From contig JAGWTI010000026.1 of assembly GCA_028876065.1 (NCBI GenBank), positions 1 through 39,183 on the forward strand: a stretch of DNA of 39,183 bases, given 5' to 3'. This document shows, piece by piece, positions 14,725-25,030 of this stretch. Position 1 is the stretch's first letter. Every line of letters begins with the position of its first letter. This DNA comes from Nitrospirota bacterium. Its GTDB lineage: Bacteria > Nitrospirota > Nitrospiria > Nitrospirales > Nitrospiraceae. Both the position numbers and the translations under genes were made by a program. The notes below the pieces were generated by a model. That model did not search any database, was not told where the DNA came from, and saw nothing but the letters and a program-made list of their open reading frames with translations.

Positions 14725-17436
14725 CTAGATCTTTTCGATCGAGACTGCGGTCATTTTGAACGAGGGCACACCCGTCACCTGACCCACCTCGACGGCCATC
14801 AGGTCCTTGACCGGAGGCTCGTTGAAATGTTCGGGGAAGAAACAGGCTCCCGGCAGCAAGGCCTGGTCGACCTGCACGCCCATTTCGAGCGAGCCGCGCT
14901 CCGAACTCACACGCACCCGCGCCCCGTCGCCCACACCGAGACGCTCCATGTCCTGGGCATTCATGCGAAGCTTGCCGGTGTTCGGCGCAATCTTGATCAG
15001 GCCCGAGGCCTGGGTCGAGAGTTTGCCCGAGTGGTAGAGGAGCTGGCCCATCGTGAGCCTGAAGGGACGTCCGGCCTCCCTCCCGGTCGCCGCCGCGGCG
15101 CGGCCATACCGGCCCGCCAGCAAGGCCGTGTAGCCGTGGGACAAATAGGCGTCCGGGTTCGGCACGATCTTCTTCGGTTGCCCGAGGTTATAATAGCCGG
15201 GCAGCAGCTTCATGATCTCGTTCTGAATATCCTGCGGGGACTCGTAGCTCAATTCATAGCCCAAGCCGCTGGCGAGCGCCGTCATGATATGCCAGTCCGG
15301 CAGGCTTTCGCCGATCGGATCCATGGTCTGCCGGACACGCTGGACCTGGCCCTCCTGGTTCGTCACGGTCCCGTCCTTTTCGGCAAAGGTGCACGCCGGC
15401 AGGACGACATGGGCCAGTTGCGCGGTTTCGGTGAGGAACGGGTCCTGAACCAGCAGCAGCTCCAGCTTCGCCAGGGCGTCCTTGACGCCGAACGACGCCG
15501 GGAGCGTCGCCAGCGGGTTCTCCCCGATGACGTACAACGCCTTGATCTGGCCGTTGCGGCAGCGATTGAGGATCTCCGCCAGATGCGCGCCATTGCCGAT
15601 CGACGGGAGCGAAACCGGCTTGTCCTTGCCCCAGGCCTTGGCAAACTTGGCGCGGGCCGCCTCGTCGTCGAACCGAGCCTGGCCCGGCAGGAACTCCGGC
15701 ACGGCGCCCAGATCCATGGCCCCCTGTTCGTTGGCTTCTTCGACCACCGTGTTGATGCCGCAACCGGGGCGGCCAAGTTTCCCGGTGATCCAGGCCAAGT
15801 CGATCAACGTCAGCACATCCTGATACCCGCCTGAGCGGCGGACGATCCCCTCGCCGCAGATGATCACCGCCCGAGGCGCTTCGGCGAAGATCGCCGCCGC
15901 CTCGTGAATCTGCTCGACCGGCACGCCGGTCTGCGCAGCCACGGCGTCCAACGACAGGCCCGCAGCCGCCTGCTTGAGCGAAGCAAAGGCGTCCGGCTGC
16001 CTGCCGACCGCCTCTTCGTCGACCAGGTCCTGCTCGAGCACGGACTTGACCAGCCCTTGTACGAACAGGCCTTCGGTGCCCGGCTTGACCAGCGTCGGAT
16101 GGGACGCCAGCTTGGCCAGGTTCGTATTGGATGAATCCACCACGATCACCTGGGCGCTATAGACGCGGATCGCCTGCTTCACCCTGACGCTCGCCACCGG
16201 ATTGGTCTCGGTGATGTTCGACCCGACCACGAGGATGGCTTTGGCCTTGCTGACATCCTCCGATCCGCTGGTCATGCGCCCGACGCCCAGAGCCTGCCGG
16301 ACCGCGTGGACGAAGTTGGCATGGCCGTAGCGGGCGCTGCTGTCCAACTGATTGGTCCCGATCGCCACCCGCATGACTTTCTGGAACAGATAGAGTTCCT
16401 CGTTGGTGCAGCGCGCCGTGATGAGCCCGGCGATGGCGTTCGGCCCATGCTGGGCCTTGATCGCCGCCAGCCGGTCCACGACCTGGTGCATCGTCTCCAG
16501 CCAGGGCGCTTCGACCAACCGGCCGTCCCGCCGCACCAACGGCTGGCGCAGCCGGGCCTGACTGTCGATGAACTGGAAGCCGAACCGTCCGCGCACGCAG
16601 AGTCCGCCGTGCCCCTTGGCCGTCTCGGCCCGGTCGCCCCACTTGTTCTTCCAGGAAAGCGGCGAGGTCACCCGGACCACTTCCGTGTCCTTCGTCTCGA
16701 CGTACATCTGGCAGCCGTCGCCGCAATAGTTGCAGGTGGTCGTGGTCTTCTTGAGCTGCCAGGGCTTGTAGAGGTACTTGGAGTACTTGTTGGTGATCGC
16801 GCCCACCGGGCAGACCGCCAGGCAGTCGCCGCAGAATTCGCAGGAGAGGGCCACGTCGCCCTTCGCCACCACCTGGGTGAAGCCGCCCTTCTTGGCGAAC
16901 TGCAGGGCGTCGATCATCTGCACGTCCTTGCAGATGTTGATGCACTCGCCGCAGGCGATGCAGCGGTTCATGTTGAAGTCCAGCACGAGGCTGCGGGTGT
17001 CTTCCGGGATCAGTTTCTGCTTGGCATTGGCCAGGTTGGTCACCTGGTGCTGGAAGGCCATGTCCTGCAGCTCGCAATGCCCGTCCGCGTCGCAGACCGG
17101 GCAGTCCAGCGGGTGCACGGACAGGTGTTTCTCCACCGCCTTCTTGCGGGCCTGGAAAAGGTCGTCCCCTTCCGTGCGGATGATCATGCCGGCGGTCGCC
17201 TTGGCCGTGCAGGAACGGACCGGCGCCTTCTTGCCTTCCTGCATCACCAAGCACATGCCGCAAGAGCCGAACGGGTCGAACGTATAGTGGTAGCACATGG
17301 CCGGGATGATCTTGCCCGTGCTGGAAATGACGTCGTACAACGACACCCCGTCCTTGGCCGTCACCGTGCGTCCGTCGATGGTCAGTTCGATCGTCGCCGC
17401 TTCGACTTCCGGATTGGTGGCTGGTTTCAAACCCAT
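14725..17436 (-). CDS. nuoG: NADH-quinone oxidoreductase subunit G, formate-dehydrogenase-like
   Basis: NuoG is the large Fe-S subunit of the peripheral arm. The 903-residue product has a [2Fe-2S] domain (C48, C59, C62, C76), an HxCxxCxxxxxC site (H108, C112, C115, C121), then a two-cluster ferredoxin-type pair C159/C162/C165/C169 and C199/C202/C205/C209 (CIACGECINIC, CEFCGDCLAVC). A fourth motif, C235-x2-C238-x3-C242 with C280, opens a molybdopterin-oxidoreductase-like domain that ends with a molybdopterin-dinucleotide-binding fold. The segment ARCTNEELYLFQK...SARYGHA parallels formate dehydrogenase, but Gly371 stands at the Mo-ligating Cys/Sec position, so catalysis of its own is unlikely. 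ATG 17436 has GGAGATAAAG upstream. No nuoE or nuoF flanks it. Confidence 0.95.
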   Translation of the reverse strand: MGLKPATNPEVEAATIELTIDGRTVTAKDGVSLYDVISSTGKIIPAMCYHYTFDPFGSCGMCLVMQEGKKAPVRSCTAKATAGMIIRTEGDDLFQARKKAVEKHLSVHPLDCPVCDADGHCELQDMAFQHQVTNLANAKQKLIPEDTRSLVLDFNMNRCIACGECINICKDVQMIDALQFAKKGGFTQVVAKGDVALSCEFCGDCLAVCPVGAITNKYSKYLYKPWQLKKTTTTCNYCGDGCQMYVETKDTEVVRVTSPLSWKNKWGDRAETAKGHGGLCVRGRFGFQFIDSQARLRQPLVRRDGRLVEAPWLETMHQVVDRLAAIKAQHGPNAIAGLITARCTNEELYLFQKVMRVAIGTNQLDSSARYGHANFVHAVRQALGVGRMTSGSEDVSKAKAILVVGSNITETNPVASVRVKQAIRVYSAQVIVVDSSNTNLAKLASHPTLVKPGTEGLFVQGLVKSVLEQDLVDEEAVGRQPDAFASLKQAAAGLSLDAVAAQTGVPVEQIHEAAAIFAEAPRAVIICGEGIVRRSGGYQDVLTLIDLAWITGKLGRPGCGINTVVEEANEQGAMDLGAVPEFLPGQARFDDEAARAKFAKAWGKDKPVSLPSIGNGAHLAEILNRCRNGQIKALYVIGENPLATLPASFGVKDALAKLELLLVQDPFLTETAQLAHVVLPACTFAEKDGTVTNQEGQVQRVRQTMDPIGESLPDWHIMTALASGLGYELSYESPQDIQNEIMKLLPGYYNLGQPKKIVPNPDAYLSHGYTALLAGRYGRAAAATGREAGRPFRLTMGQLLYHSGKLSTQASGLIKIAPNTGKLRMNAQDMERLGVGDGARVRVSSERGSLEMGVQVDQALLPGACFFPEHFNEPPVKDLMAVEVGQVTGVPSFKMTAVSIEKI

Positions 17437-17447
17437 GCTTTATCTCC

Positions 17448-17535
17448 AACGCTGAACGATGAACGCAAAAGGATGAAGTGAAGACCCCGCCCGAACCTCT
17501 TCACTTCATCGTTCATCATTCACGCTTCATCGTTT
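17448..17535. repeat. Heptad-repeat inverted element between nuoD and nuoG
   Basis: Left arm 17448-17484 contains units AACGCTG, AACGATG, AACGCAA, AAGGATG and AAGTGAA. Right arm 17498-17535 contains TCTTCACTTCATC followed by GTTCATC, ATTCACG, CTTCATC and GTTTCTA. A perfect 13-bp stem pairs 17472-17484 with 17498-17510. The right arm abuts the nuoD stop codon and the left arm lies next to the nuoG Shine-Dalgarno. Confidence 0.8.
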
Positions 17536-18792
17536 CTAACGGTCGCACTCCCCCATCACGATGTCGTACGTGCCGAAAATCGTGACCGCATCCGCAATCA
17601 TGTAGCCGCGCGACATGTAGTCGAACGCGCCCATGTGAATGAACGACGGAGCGCGGATCTTCAACCGATAGGGTTTCCCGCCCCCCTGGCTGACGATGTA
17701 GAAGCCCAGTTCGCCTTTGTGCGCCTCGGTCCCGCAATAGATCTCGCCTTTGGGCGCGTCGAACCCCTGCGAGAAGAGCTTGAACTGCTGGATCATAGAT
17801 TCCAGGTTCGTGAACACCCGCTCCTTGGGCGGGAGCGTCACGCTGGGCACCTCGGCCATGACCGGCCCCTCCGCCGGCATCTGGTCGAGGCATTGCCTGA
17901 TGATCTTCGCGCTCTCGCGCATCTCCTCGACCCTGATCCAGTACCGGTCGTAGGTGTCGCCGTTCTTGCCCACCGGCACGCTGAACTCACAGCGGGGATA
18001 GGCCGAATAGGGTTCGTACTTGCGGAGGTCGTAATCCACGCCCGACCCGCGCAGCGTCGGTCCGCTGAGGCCGAAGTTGACCGCATCCTCCGCCGAGATC
18101 ACCGCCACACCCTTGGTACGGGCCACCCAGATCCGGTTCTTCTCCAGGAACACTACATACTCGTCGATTTTGGGCAAAAAGTAGTCCAGGAAGGCTCGAA
18201 GCTTGCTCAGCAACGCCGGCGTGAAGTCCCGCTCCACCCCCCCGATCCGATACCAGCTCGTCGTGAGCCGGGCGCCGCAGAGTTCGTCGAACCAATCCAG
18301 CAAAATTTCCCGGTCGCGGAACGTATAGAAGAAGACCGTCATGGCGCCGATGTCCAACGCCTGGGTTCCCAACCAGAACTGGTGTCCGATGATCCGCTGC
18401 ACTTCCGCCACGATCGTGCGCAGGTATTCGGCCCGCTCGGGCACCGTGATGTTCATCAACTTCTCGACCGCGCGGCAGTAGGCGAAGTTGTTGTACATCG
18501 CGCAGACGTAGTCCAGACGGTCCGTGTGCGGGATGAACTGATGGTACGTGCCCTCCTCGGCCAGTTTTTCCACCCCCCGGTGCAGAAAGCCCATGACCGG
18601 CGTGGACTTGGTGATCCGCTCGCCTTCCAGCTCCAGGATCACCTTCAAGACTCCATGGGTGCTCGGATGCTGCGGCCCCATGTTCAGGAGCAGCTCTTCG
18701 GTCCGCACCAGCGGCAGCGACTCGGTCTCCGGTCGGCCCGGATCGACTTTATAGACGGTGGTGCGTTGATCGTCGAGTTGCATAATTTTCAA
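17536..18792 (-). CDS. nuoD: NADH-quinone oxidoreductase subunit D
   Basis: NuoD (49-kDa type) forms much of the quinone-binding site together with NuoB. The 418-residue product has the conserved N-terminal NMGPQHPSTHGVLKVILELEG (residues 32-52), containing the quinone-contacting His of HPSTHG, and a quinone-site Tyr region near FIPHTDRLDYVCAMYNN. The C-terminus FGTYDIVMGECDR matches the family ending (usual DVVFGEVDR). It is separate from nuoC, not fused. ATG 18792 is preceded by the heptad element in the gap to nuoC. A functional core subunit is expected. Confidence 0.97.
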   Translation of the reverse strand: MKIMQLDDQRTTVYKVDPGRPETESLPLVRTEELLLNMGPQHPSTHGVLKVILELEGERITKSTPVMGFLHRGVEKLAEEGTYHQFIPHTDRLDYVCAMYNNFAYCRAVEKLMNITVPERAEYLRTIVAEVQRIIGHQFWLGTQALDIGAMTVFFYTFRDREILLDWFDELCGARLTTSWYRIGGVERDFTPALLSKLRAFLDYFLPKIDEYVVFLEKNRIWVARTKGVAVISAEDAVNFGLSGPTLRGSGVDYDLRKYEPYSAYPRCEFSVPVGKNGDTYDRYWIRVEEMRESAKIIRQCLDQMPAEGPVMAEVPSVTLPPKERVFTNLESMIQQFKLFSQGFDAPKGEIYCGTEAHKGELGFYIVSQGGGKPYRLKIRAPSFIHMGAFDYMSRGYMIADAVTIFGTYDIVMGECDR

Positions 18793-22591: not shown

Positions 22592-22620
22592 TTGTTCCCC
22601 TCGGGCCCGGCTGCTAGAAT
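22592..22620 (+). promoter_or_regulatory. Candidate promoter of priA
   Basis: A -35 TTGTTC (22592-22597) and a -10 TAGAAT (22615-22620) have the ideal 17-nt spacer. The expected start near 22627 excludes the TTG 22592 and ATG 22619 start codons and favours GTG 22682. Confidence 0.5.
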
Positions 22621-22681: not shown

Positions 22682-25030
22682 GTGAGACAGCCCTCCGAAA
22701 CAGCAAACCCAGATCCCGCATTCGCGGAGGTGCTGGTCCCCCGGCACTTGCGGCAAACTTTCACCTATCGCATCCCGGCCCCGCTCCGACAACACGTGAC
22801 GGTCGGCAGCGGAGTCCTGGTGCCCTTCGGCGCCAGCACCATCCGGGGCGTGGTGATCGACCTGACGCCGACGCCGCCTCCGGCGTTCTCCAAGCCGGTC
22901 GCCATGGCGCGACTGAAGGACATCTTGTCATTGGCGGCAGGACAAGATGGAGGCATCGCCTCCCCGGATCTCCTGGACCTGACCCGCCTCGTATCCGAAC
23001 GGTACCTCGCGCCGTGGGGCCAATGCCTCCGGTTGGCCCTGCCGCCTCCCGTACCCGTCATCAAGCCTTCACAGTACTACCGCATCACCGAGGAGGGGCG
23101 GACGGCCGTTCAGCAAGCGGAGGGGGCCACATCCACGAAACTCTCCGCTCAAGCGCACGAACTGCTCGCAAGACTGGCGGCGACATCCAGACGCAAGGGC
23201 TTGACGCTGGCCACCCTCCGCCGAGGACTCGACGGGCCGGTGGCCAGGACGCTCGCCGACCTGAAGCGCCGCAGCCTGTTGCAGGAAGGCCCTGCCGAGG
23301 GCGCCGCTCCCAGTCAGCCGCGAACCGGCGCGCGGCGAGGCGGCCCGAGCCAGGTTCCCATGCAGGCGGAGCCGGACCAGTCCTTCCGCCCCCTCGCCCT
23401 TCCTGTGGTTCCACCGCTCTGGCAAGAGCGGCTCCAGGCCGATCTGCGAAGCGGAGACAGCAAGACTTTGCTGCTACAAGCCCCCTTCCTCGACCGCCTC
23501 GCCGGCTATCTCTGCGCAGCCCAGGAGGTCCTCGCCCGGCACCGCACCGCCCTCATCATCTCTCCCGACATGACACGCGCCTCGGTCATCGCCAAGACCG
23601 CGCAAGCCCGGTGGGGGCGACACGTAGAACTGCTGCACAGCGCCTTGGCTCCGAGCGCCCGCGAGGCGGCGTGGCGCAGAATCCAGGCCCGAGAGGTGTC
23701 GCTGGTGGTGGGGACAAGATCCGCCAGCTTCGCCCCCCTGGCCGCTCTCGGCCTCATCTGCATGGATCAGGAAGACGATCCATCGCTGAAGGAAGAACAA
23801 GAACCCCGCTACCACGCGCGCGACGTCGCCAAGCTCCGCGCAGCCCAGCATGGGGCCCTGCTGCTGCTCGGCTCGGCCCATCCGTCGCTCGAAACCTGGC
23901 AGGCAATGGCGGACGGCGAAAAGACCGGGCGGGTTTTATCGGTGGCCATCGCGCCACAGACGCCGGCCATCCACGTCATCGATTTGCGCCGGACTCCCTA
24001 CGGCACCGTCCTCTCGCAATCCATGCTGGACGGTATCAAGGCAGCCGTGGCGGCCAAAACCGGCGTGGCTCTTTTTTTGAACCGCAAAGGGTTTGCCTCC
24101 GCGCTGCTGTGTCGAGACTGCGGCAACGCGCTGCAGTGTCCGCAGTGCTCCGTCTCGTTGACCTACTACCGCCAGTCCGCCGCGTTAGCCTGTCGCTACT
24201 GCGGCACCTCGGCGCCGCCGCCCGACACCTGCCCCACCTGCCAGGGCGCCAGGCTGGAACCGGTCGGGTCCGGAACCGAACGGCTGGAGGAGATGCTGCG
24301 GCGCCTCGTTCCCCAGGCCAGCATCGCCAGGCTCGACCGCGACCAAGCCAAAACGCAGAGCCAGGCCGACCGGGTCCGGGCGGAAGCCGTGGCAGGCAAA
24401 TGGGACATCCTCATCGGCACGCAGATGCTGCTGCAAAGCTTTCCGCTGCCACGCGTGGGCTTCGTCGGCATCGCCAACGCCGATGCAGGACTGCATGCCG
24501 CAGATTTCCGCGCCGCCGAACGGACCTACCACGCCCTGCTGGACGCAGCCTCTCTGGCCAAGCCGGCGGACGAAGAAGGGACGGTCCTGATCCAAACGTC
24601 CCTGCCGAGTCACCATGCGATCGCGGCCGTGGCGCAGCAGAATCCCTCGCTCTTCTATGAGCAAGAGCTGCTCTCTCGGCAAGCCCTCGGTTATCCACCG
24701 TTCACGCACCTGATCAGCTTGCAGGTGTCGGGCACGCAGGCCGGAGCGGTCAAACAGGCAGCGATGCGCTGGGGCAAGCTGCTCAACCAGGCGATGCAGA
24801 CCGCCCCCAAGCCGGCGCCGGGCGCGACAGAGCCGGTGACGATACTCGGCCCGGTCCCGGCCCAGCACGCACAGCTCCGCGGGCGGCACCGGTATCAGCT
24901 TCTGGTCAAGGCGGTCAACGCGGAGCAAGCCCGCCACACGGTCAAGGCCACGCTGGACGAAATGGAGCGCACGAGGGGAAAGAGCGGGCTGCGGTTCGAT
25001 GTGGACGTGGACCCGCTGGAGATGCTGTAA
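22682..25030 (+). CDS. priA: PriA homologue with degenerate helicase motifs (replication restart primosome)
   Basis: PriA recognises stalled forks and loads the replicative helicase. From GTG 22682 the product is 782 residues. The N-terminal DNA-binding domain (AEVLVPRHLRQTFTYRIP, residues 15-32) and eight zinc-site cysteines (CRDCGNALQCPQC ... CRYCG ... CPTCQG) are intact, as is the FRAAERTYH segment. The ATPase motifs are not: Walker A is A267PFLDRLA instead of GxTGSGKT, Walker B is DQED (362-365) instead of DEEH, motif III is GSAHPS, and the AGRAGR arginine motif reads DAASLAKPA. The protein should bind DNA but not hydrolyse ATP, like the helicase-deficient PriA of some actinobacteria and Deinococcus. 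The frame is open to 22592; a promoter and the family N-terminus favour GTG 22682, although its Shine-Dalgarno is weak. Confidence 0.88.
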   Translation: MRQPSETANPDPAFAEVLVPRHLRQTFTYRIPAPLRQHVTVGSGVLVPFGASTIRGVVIDLTPTPPPAFSKPVAMARLKDILSLAAGQDGGIASPDLLDLTRLVSERYLAPWGQCLRLALPPPVPVIKPSQYYRITEEGRTAVQQAEGATSTKLSAQAHELLARLAATSRRKGLTLATLRRGLDGPVARTLADLKRRSLLQEGPAEGAAPSQPRTGARRGGPSQVPMQAEPDQSFRPLALPVVPPLWQERLQADLRSGDSKTLLLQAPFLDRLAGYLCAAQEVLARHRTALIISPDMTRASVIAKTAQARWGRHVELLHSALAPSAREAAWRRIQAREVSLVVGTRSASFAPLAALGLICMDQEDDPSLKEEQEPRYHARDVAKLRAAQHGALLLLGSAHPSLETWQAMADGEKTGRVLSVAIAPQTPAIHVIDLRRTPYGTVLSQSMLDGIKAAVAAKTGVALFLNRKGFASALLCRDCGNALQCPQCSVSLTYYRQSAALACRYCGTSAPPPDTCPTCQGARLEPVGSGTERLEEMLRRLVPQASIARLDRDQAKTQSQADRVRAEAVAGKWDILIGTQMLLQSFPLPRVGFVGIANADAGLHAADFRAAERTYHALLDAASLAKPADEEGTVLIQTSLPSHHAIAAVAQQNPSLFYEQELLSRQALGYPPFTHLISLQVSGTQAGAVKQAAMRWGKLLNQAMQTAPKPAPGATEPVTILGPVPAQHAQLRGRHRYQLLVKAVNAEQARHTVKATLDEMERTRGKSGLRFDVDVDPLEML

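Follow-up and report, generated by a model that had tools for sequence, protein, structure and literature searches.

What does a PriA do once its motor is gone, and which of its parts are then maintained? The question is raised by a gene in the window (the entire stretch of DNA that was analyzed, 39,183 nucleotides), which a preliminary description, made from the sequence alone, had identified as a priA that has lost every helicase motif and kept its zinc and DNA-binding parts.

Identity of the gene and state of its motifs

The gene encodes PriA (primosomal protein N′). Its product scores 448-450 bits with TIGR00595, against a cut-off of 230, the 3′-DNA-binding domain (3′BD; PF17764, 70 bits) and the PriA_C domain (PF18074, 71 bits) both score above cut-off, and the closest solved relatives in a phmmer search are the PriA proteins of Klebsiella and Escherichia coli. 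An AlphaFold model (pLDDT of 75, from a 14-sequence alignment) retrieves only PriA structures as top matches in Foldseek, including 8fak, 6dgd, and 4nl8, and the helicase core, the cysteine-rich region (CRR), and the C-terminal domain (CTD) are all homologous to those of PriA, in the domain order known from the canonical E. coli and Klebsiella proteins (PDB 8fak, 6dgd, 4nl4, 4nl8), 3′BD, winged helix, HD1, HD2 with the eight-cysteine CRR inserted, and CTD. That the eight zinc cysteines and the N-terminal DNA-binding domain are intact, as originally noticed, is borne out by PF18319, PF17764, and the alignment. The frame is indeed full length and free of stops, giving 782 residues from GTG at 22682, and its longest reading, from an in-frame TTG upstream, at 22592, is also open. 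A frameshift or an assembly error as the cause of the motif losses is ruled out, as relatives at 75-78% identity have these losses too. Genes for NADH dehydrogenase subunits (nuoG-like and nuoD-like; 14725-18792, minus strand) are found upstream of an OmpA-family gene and priA.

When the protein is aligned residue by residue with Klebsiella PriA and 43 intact relatives, the original claim that every helicase motif is lost turns out to be too broad. Motifs I, II, and VI are destroyed: GVTGSGKTEVY of Walker A is replaced by QAPFLDRLAGY, DEEH of motif II by DQED, and QVAGRAGR of motif VI by LDAASLAK. Motif III, however, is altered at one residue only (GSATPS to GSAHPS), and the first half of motif V (ILIGTQMxAKGHxFP, here ILIGTQMLLQSFPLP) is kept, along with FLNRKGF. 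A scan of the whole protein for the P-loop pattern GxxxxGK[S/T] gave zero occurrences, so Walker A has not merely moved elsewhere in the protein. The sequences typical of an active PriA helicase (SF2, 3′-5′), Walker A GxxxxGKT, DEEH, and QxxGRxGR, are therefore all missing. The positions of the lost and kept elements are collected in Table 1.

Table 1. The priA gene and its elements, in coordinates of the window.
Feature	Coordinates	Strand	Basis
priA gene	22682..25030	+	Start point roughly matches that of homologues
3′BD, residues 1-125, kept	22682..23056	+	PF17764, 70 bits; conservation equals that in intact PriAs
SSB-tail pocket, W82 and Y86 positions, here L103 and R107, lost	22988..23002	+	Alignment to Klebsiella PriA
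Winged-helix/linker region, residues 126-259, weakest constraint	23057..23458	+	dN/dS 0.38-0.46; domain assigned by position (putative)
Motif I (Walker A) site, residues 263-277, LLLQAPFLDRLAGYL, P-loop gone	23468..23512	+	Alignment
Motif II (Walker B) site, residues 358-366, LICMDQEDD versus xxxVDEEHD	23753..23779	+	Alignment
Motif III, residues 394-405, LLLGSAHPSLET (T to H)	23861..23896	+	Alignment
SSB-tail pocket, K370 position, here E413, charge reversed	23918..23920	+	Alignment to Klebsiella PriA
CRR, residues 477-522, all eight zinc cysteines	24110..24247	+	PF18319; dN/dS mostly 0.08-0.09
Motif V, residues 576-586, ILIGTQMLLQS, first half kept, KGH gone	24407..24439	+	Alignment
Motif VI (arginine finger) site, residues 619-629, LLDAASLAKPA, QxxGRxGR gone	24536..24568	+	Alignment
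CTD (PriA_C), residues 630-782, kept	24569..25027	+	PF18074, 71 bits; dN/dS 0.12-0.16

Age of the motor loss and selection on what remains

An alignment of PriA across the phylum, which had been suggested as a check, reveals an ancient, order-wide loss, and a second, independent one in the same phylum. It comprises 52 sequences from the order Nitrospirales (four families), 40 from a second motor-less clade, and 43 from other relatives. Neither GxxxxGKT nor the motif VI arginines are found in any of the 52 sequences of the order, and DEEH is maintained in four of them, all from the deepest family, f4 (as DEEHD). All ATPase motifs, GxxxxGKT and motif VI included, are missing from the second clade (0/40; ten families: f11, f17, f19, f21-f27), and all motifs are present in the 43 intact relatives, which come from the three remaining families of the class and from eleven additional ones elsewhere in the phylum. 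Across 236 genomes of the order no intact-like PriA was found, the best match scoring 453 bits versus 593-667 bits for intact PriAs across most of the phylum, a contrast that does not extend to family f16, whose PriAs are intact and score about 440-470 bits. The rpoB tree keeps the two motor-less sets apart, with intact families between them and two changes required, and their union is rejected (AU test, p-AU 7e-61, on a quick tree of one marker), which rules out a single motor loss common to both clades; a PriA tree built with the motif columns removed also requires two changes. These trees are products of quick searches, with rpoB as the one species marker. The motor of PriA was thus lost twice, separately, within the phylum, and in the order the loss would have been one event, preceding the radiation of the order. 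The second motor-less clade (L122-L158, L164-L166) retains the zinc cysteines and the tip of the SSB tail, mostly DLEPF. Several genomes from the order (G155, which is 99% complete, G217, G248, G246, G276) show no PriA above background, through true loss or an assembly gap, and in one relative, G047, priA (L056) is broken by an in-frame TGA, as read by the search.

The preliminary description deduced selection from the lack of stops; the rates of substitution now provide direct support. Among four genomes of the genus, with synonymous sites unsaturated, the overall dN/dS of priA is 0.22-0.26, and the gene is under purifying selection that is strongest in HD2, CRR, and CTD: values are 0.06-0.08 in HD2 after the CRR and similarly low in the CRR itself, where one pair, with few synonymous changes, gives 0.33, followed by the CTD, then HD1 (0.25-0.32), and then the linker (Table 1). 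Compared between genera, the residues at the P-loop site are close to random, with a mean identity of 0.24 versus 0.64 in intact PriAs, and conservation of the PDFRSAER segment, the CRR, and the CTD equals or exceeds that in intact PriAs, the eight zinc cysteines being invariant in all three PriA groups. As the motif losses are found in 52 homologues of the order and dN/dS is far below 1, they are beyond chance. Loss of the ATPase motifs with the remainder under purifying selection is the pattern of a pseudohelicase of the Deinococcus type.

Probable function of PriA without the motor

We consider it very probable that this PriA is a pseudohelicase, a restart initiator devoid of PriA-type ATP binding and hydrolysis that selection has retained to clamp forked DNA independently of ATP. 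The 3′BD would recognize an abandoned fork, and HD2, CRR, and CTD would close around the single-stranded lagging strand. This role is preferred mainly because the domains that are conserved match those framing the pore for lagging-strand single-stranded DNA in the structure of E. coli PriA with PriB and a fork, namely CRR, HD2, and CTD (PMC10175261), with the caveat that CRR and HD2 also act in unwinding by the E. coli protein, so a clamp role is not the only one that would conserve them. In E. coli, ATPase activity is dispensable for restart, and the ATPase-dead K230A PriA supports DnaB loading in vitro (PMC10175261). The PriA of Deinococcus radiodurans has neither ATPase nor unwinding activity and binds both forks and DnaB (PMC4504706), and by this analogy the original proposal of a fork-binding scaffold rather than a motor is upheld as the best reading of the gene. 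The clamp would then recruit the replicative helicase, either directly, in the way reported for DnaB and the Deinococcus protein, or together with DciA, and a double-stranded lagging arm would be cleared by other enzymes, such as RecG or a UvrD-type helicase.

The gene content of the source genome (3.41 Mb in 158 contigs, 100% complete) was searched for such partners and for a second PriA. A profile search found no second, canonical PriA in this complete genome, and the other matches to the PriA family are, judged by their sequences, Mfd, RecG, UvrB, and a DEAD-type helicase. Of the alternative loaders that had been suggested, PriC has no match in the genome; the helicase loader DciA is encoded (84 bits). 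For DnaC/DnaI the genome holds no convincing candidate: matches to PF01695 are weak and partial, the best one sits in a 464-residue frame that we take to be DnaA, and a DnaC-like loader was therefore rejected. RecG and a UvrD-type helicase are both encoded, with intact P-loops.

Two other readings of the gene deserve to be weighed against these data. Were it a decaying pseudogene, whose motor was lost as PriA became unneeded and whose remainder survives by inertia, then the handful of nearly complete genomes in the order without PriA above the family cut-off (G155, for example) and the in-frame TGA in G047 would find a ready explanation; frames that are open in nearly all relatives, in four families, the low dN/dS, and the invariance of the zinc cysteines make this extremely improbable. 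A divergent but active ATPase, in which ATP would be bound by non-canonical residues, or in which ATP binding would act as a switch without a P-loop, could account for the predicted PriA-like fold of both HD1 and HD2, for the constraint that HD1 still experiences outside motif I, and for the DEEHD of the deepest family, f4. However, the P-loop site differs freely from genus to genus, neither the lysine of Walker A nor any motif VI arginine is left, and the K230R substitution alone abolishes both ATPase and unwinding in E. coli PriA, according to work cited in a study of the Deinococcus protein (PMC4504706), so we judge such an enzyme to be very unlikely. Under the clamp reading, we infer that the protein has no ATPase activity and that binding of forks and recruitment of the helicase are what selection maintains.

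Loss of the PriA motor is a further, doubly replicated instance of a known phenomenon. Actinobacterial PriA is not known to have helicase motifs either. NCBIfam model PRK14873, which we take to represent the actinobacterial type and through which alone the comparison was made, gives at most 181 bits, far below the best general PriA models. The similar losses that had been pointed out elsewhere can be traced in Deinococcus (PMC4504706); for Actinobacteria the open paper describes the putative orthologue only as smaller and very divergent (PMC1193525). The case presented here resembles that of D. radiodurans in the loss of the Walker motifs and the retention of the DNA-binding parts, and it differs in extent, as the Deinococcus-Thermus proteins carry arginine in place of the Walker A lysine, whereas here the P-loop, DEEH, and the arginine motif are wholly replaced. 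It also differs in concerning another phylum, two separate losses, and, in Nitrospirales, the loss of the SSB tip as well. In a comparison of 100 PriA sequences over 18 phyla, Deinococcus-Thermus was the only named exception (PMC4504706). Two clade-wide motor losses, accompanied by strong selection on HD2, CRR, and CTD, amount to natural experiments on the essential function of PriA, and they point to fork clamping and reloading, not unwinding, as that function.

The SSB tail and its pocket on PriA

The acidic-Ile-Pro-Phe tip of SSB is near-universal, and in E. coli the C-terminal Pro-Phe is the docking point for PriA and about 20 further proteins. Removal of the terminal Phe is lethal in E. 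coli, abolishing partner binding (PMC10164576). The only SSB recognized in the source genome (L174:1426-1806, minus strand, contig C23), by a search that could miss a highly divergent second one, ends in EEPGYEEDIPQ-stop, without a terminal Phe. Among 55 main SSBs from the order, in a sample of 27 genera, not one ends in Pro-Phe, two ending in EQF; their tails are still acidic, and a [YF][ED] dipeptide is present within the last 12 residues in 49 of them. Outside the order, 20 genomes were sampled and 19 were readable, and all 19 SSBs end in PF, those of the second motor-less clade included, so the motor and the SSB tip are not necessarily lost together. The SSB gene of one genome with an intact PriA (G081, L223, family f18) carries, as deposited, an in-frame TAA inside the OB fold.

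In Klebsiella PriA the SSB tail is contacted by W82, Y86, K370, R697, and Q701 (PMC5531588), for which the window PriA has L, R, E, A, and R, the last two being A747 and R751. R697 and Q701 are variable everywhere, intact relatives included, and carry no weight; the invariant R666, considered as an equivalent of R697, was ruled out, as the Klebsiella alignment places R697 at A747. The other three positions are informative: residues of the W82/Y86/K370 type (aromatic, aromatic, basic) are kept in 27/30 intact genera and in 24/26 genera of the second motor-less clade, versus 1/29 genera of the order, and this one belongs to the deep family f4. Neither the five pocket residues nor an SSB ending in (D/E)xPF, as would be typical of a PriA dependent on the SSB C-terminus (SSB-Ct), are thus found, and loss of the SSB tip coincides with erosion of the PriA pocket in the order alone, PriA being the one SSB client considered. 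As family f4 is without the tail tip and still has the pocket and DEEH, this suggests that the tail and the P-loop were lost first and that the remainder decayed later in the order.

These observations lead us to favor, with some reserve, the view that the SSB C-terminal hub has been dismantled throughout the order, with an acidic tail in place of the tip and with PriA, one of the main clients, left without pocket and motor, so that restart and repair operate on a rewired SSB-tail code or in its absence. The pocket could instead be naturally variable and SSB could dock its partners by another mode, the loss of the tip being unrelated to PriA. R697 and Q701 do vary even among intact relatives, and the PriA of Staphylococcus aureus, which resembles the present one in lacking the pocket residues, still binds SsbA, whose end is LPF; it differs in that SsbA has a DDDLPF tip and PriA has ATPase (PMC5531588). 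We hold such an unrelated loss to be the less likely course, as the three informative residues are kept nearly throughout elsewhere and are lost from almost all of the sole tip-less group. PriA of the order probably no longer docks to the SSB tail, and, because the tip is lost and the pocket decayed, it would have to find forks by DNA structure or through another contact with SSB.

A full-text search of the open-licence literature found no paper dealing with PriA or with the tail of SSB in Nitrospira, which is weak evidence of absence, and the order-wide loss of the SSB tip appears to be unreported. Loss of both tip and pocket challenges the notion of the SSB-Ct hub as indispensable in bacteria, and does so in a large order to which the nitrite oxidizer Nitrospira apparently belongs; recruitment of SSB partners without this hub becomes directly testable there. 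The SSB-Ct has been proposed as an antibiotic target, and a lineage living without it is informative for this idea. Several genomes of the order encode extra SSB-like genes (L281-L296, L300), about 27-86% identical to the main SSB and without a PF tail, and the extra SSBs of a genome from a sister family (G169) end in IPF or VPF.
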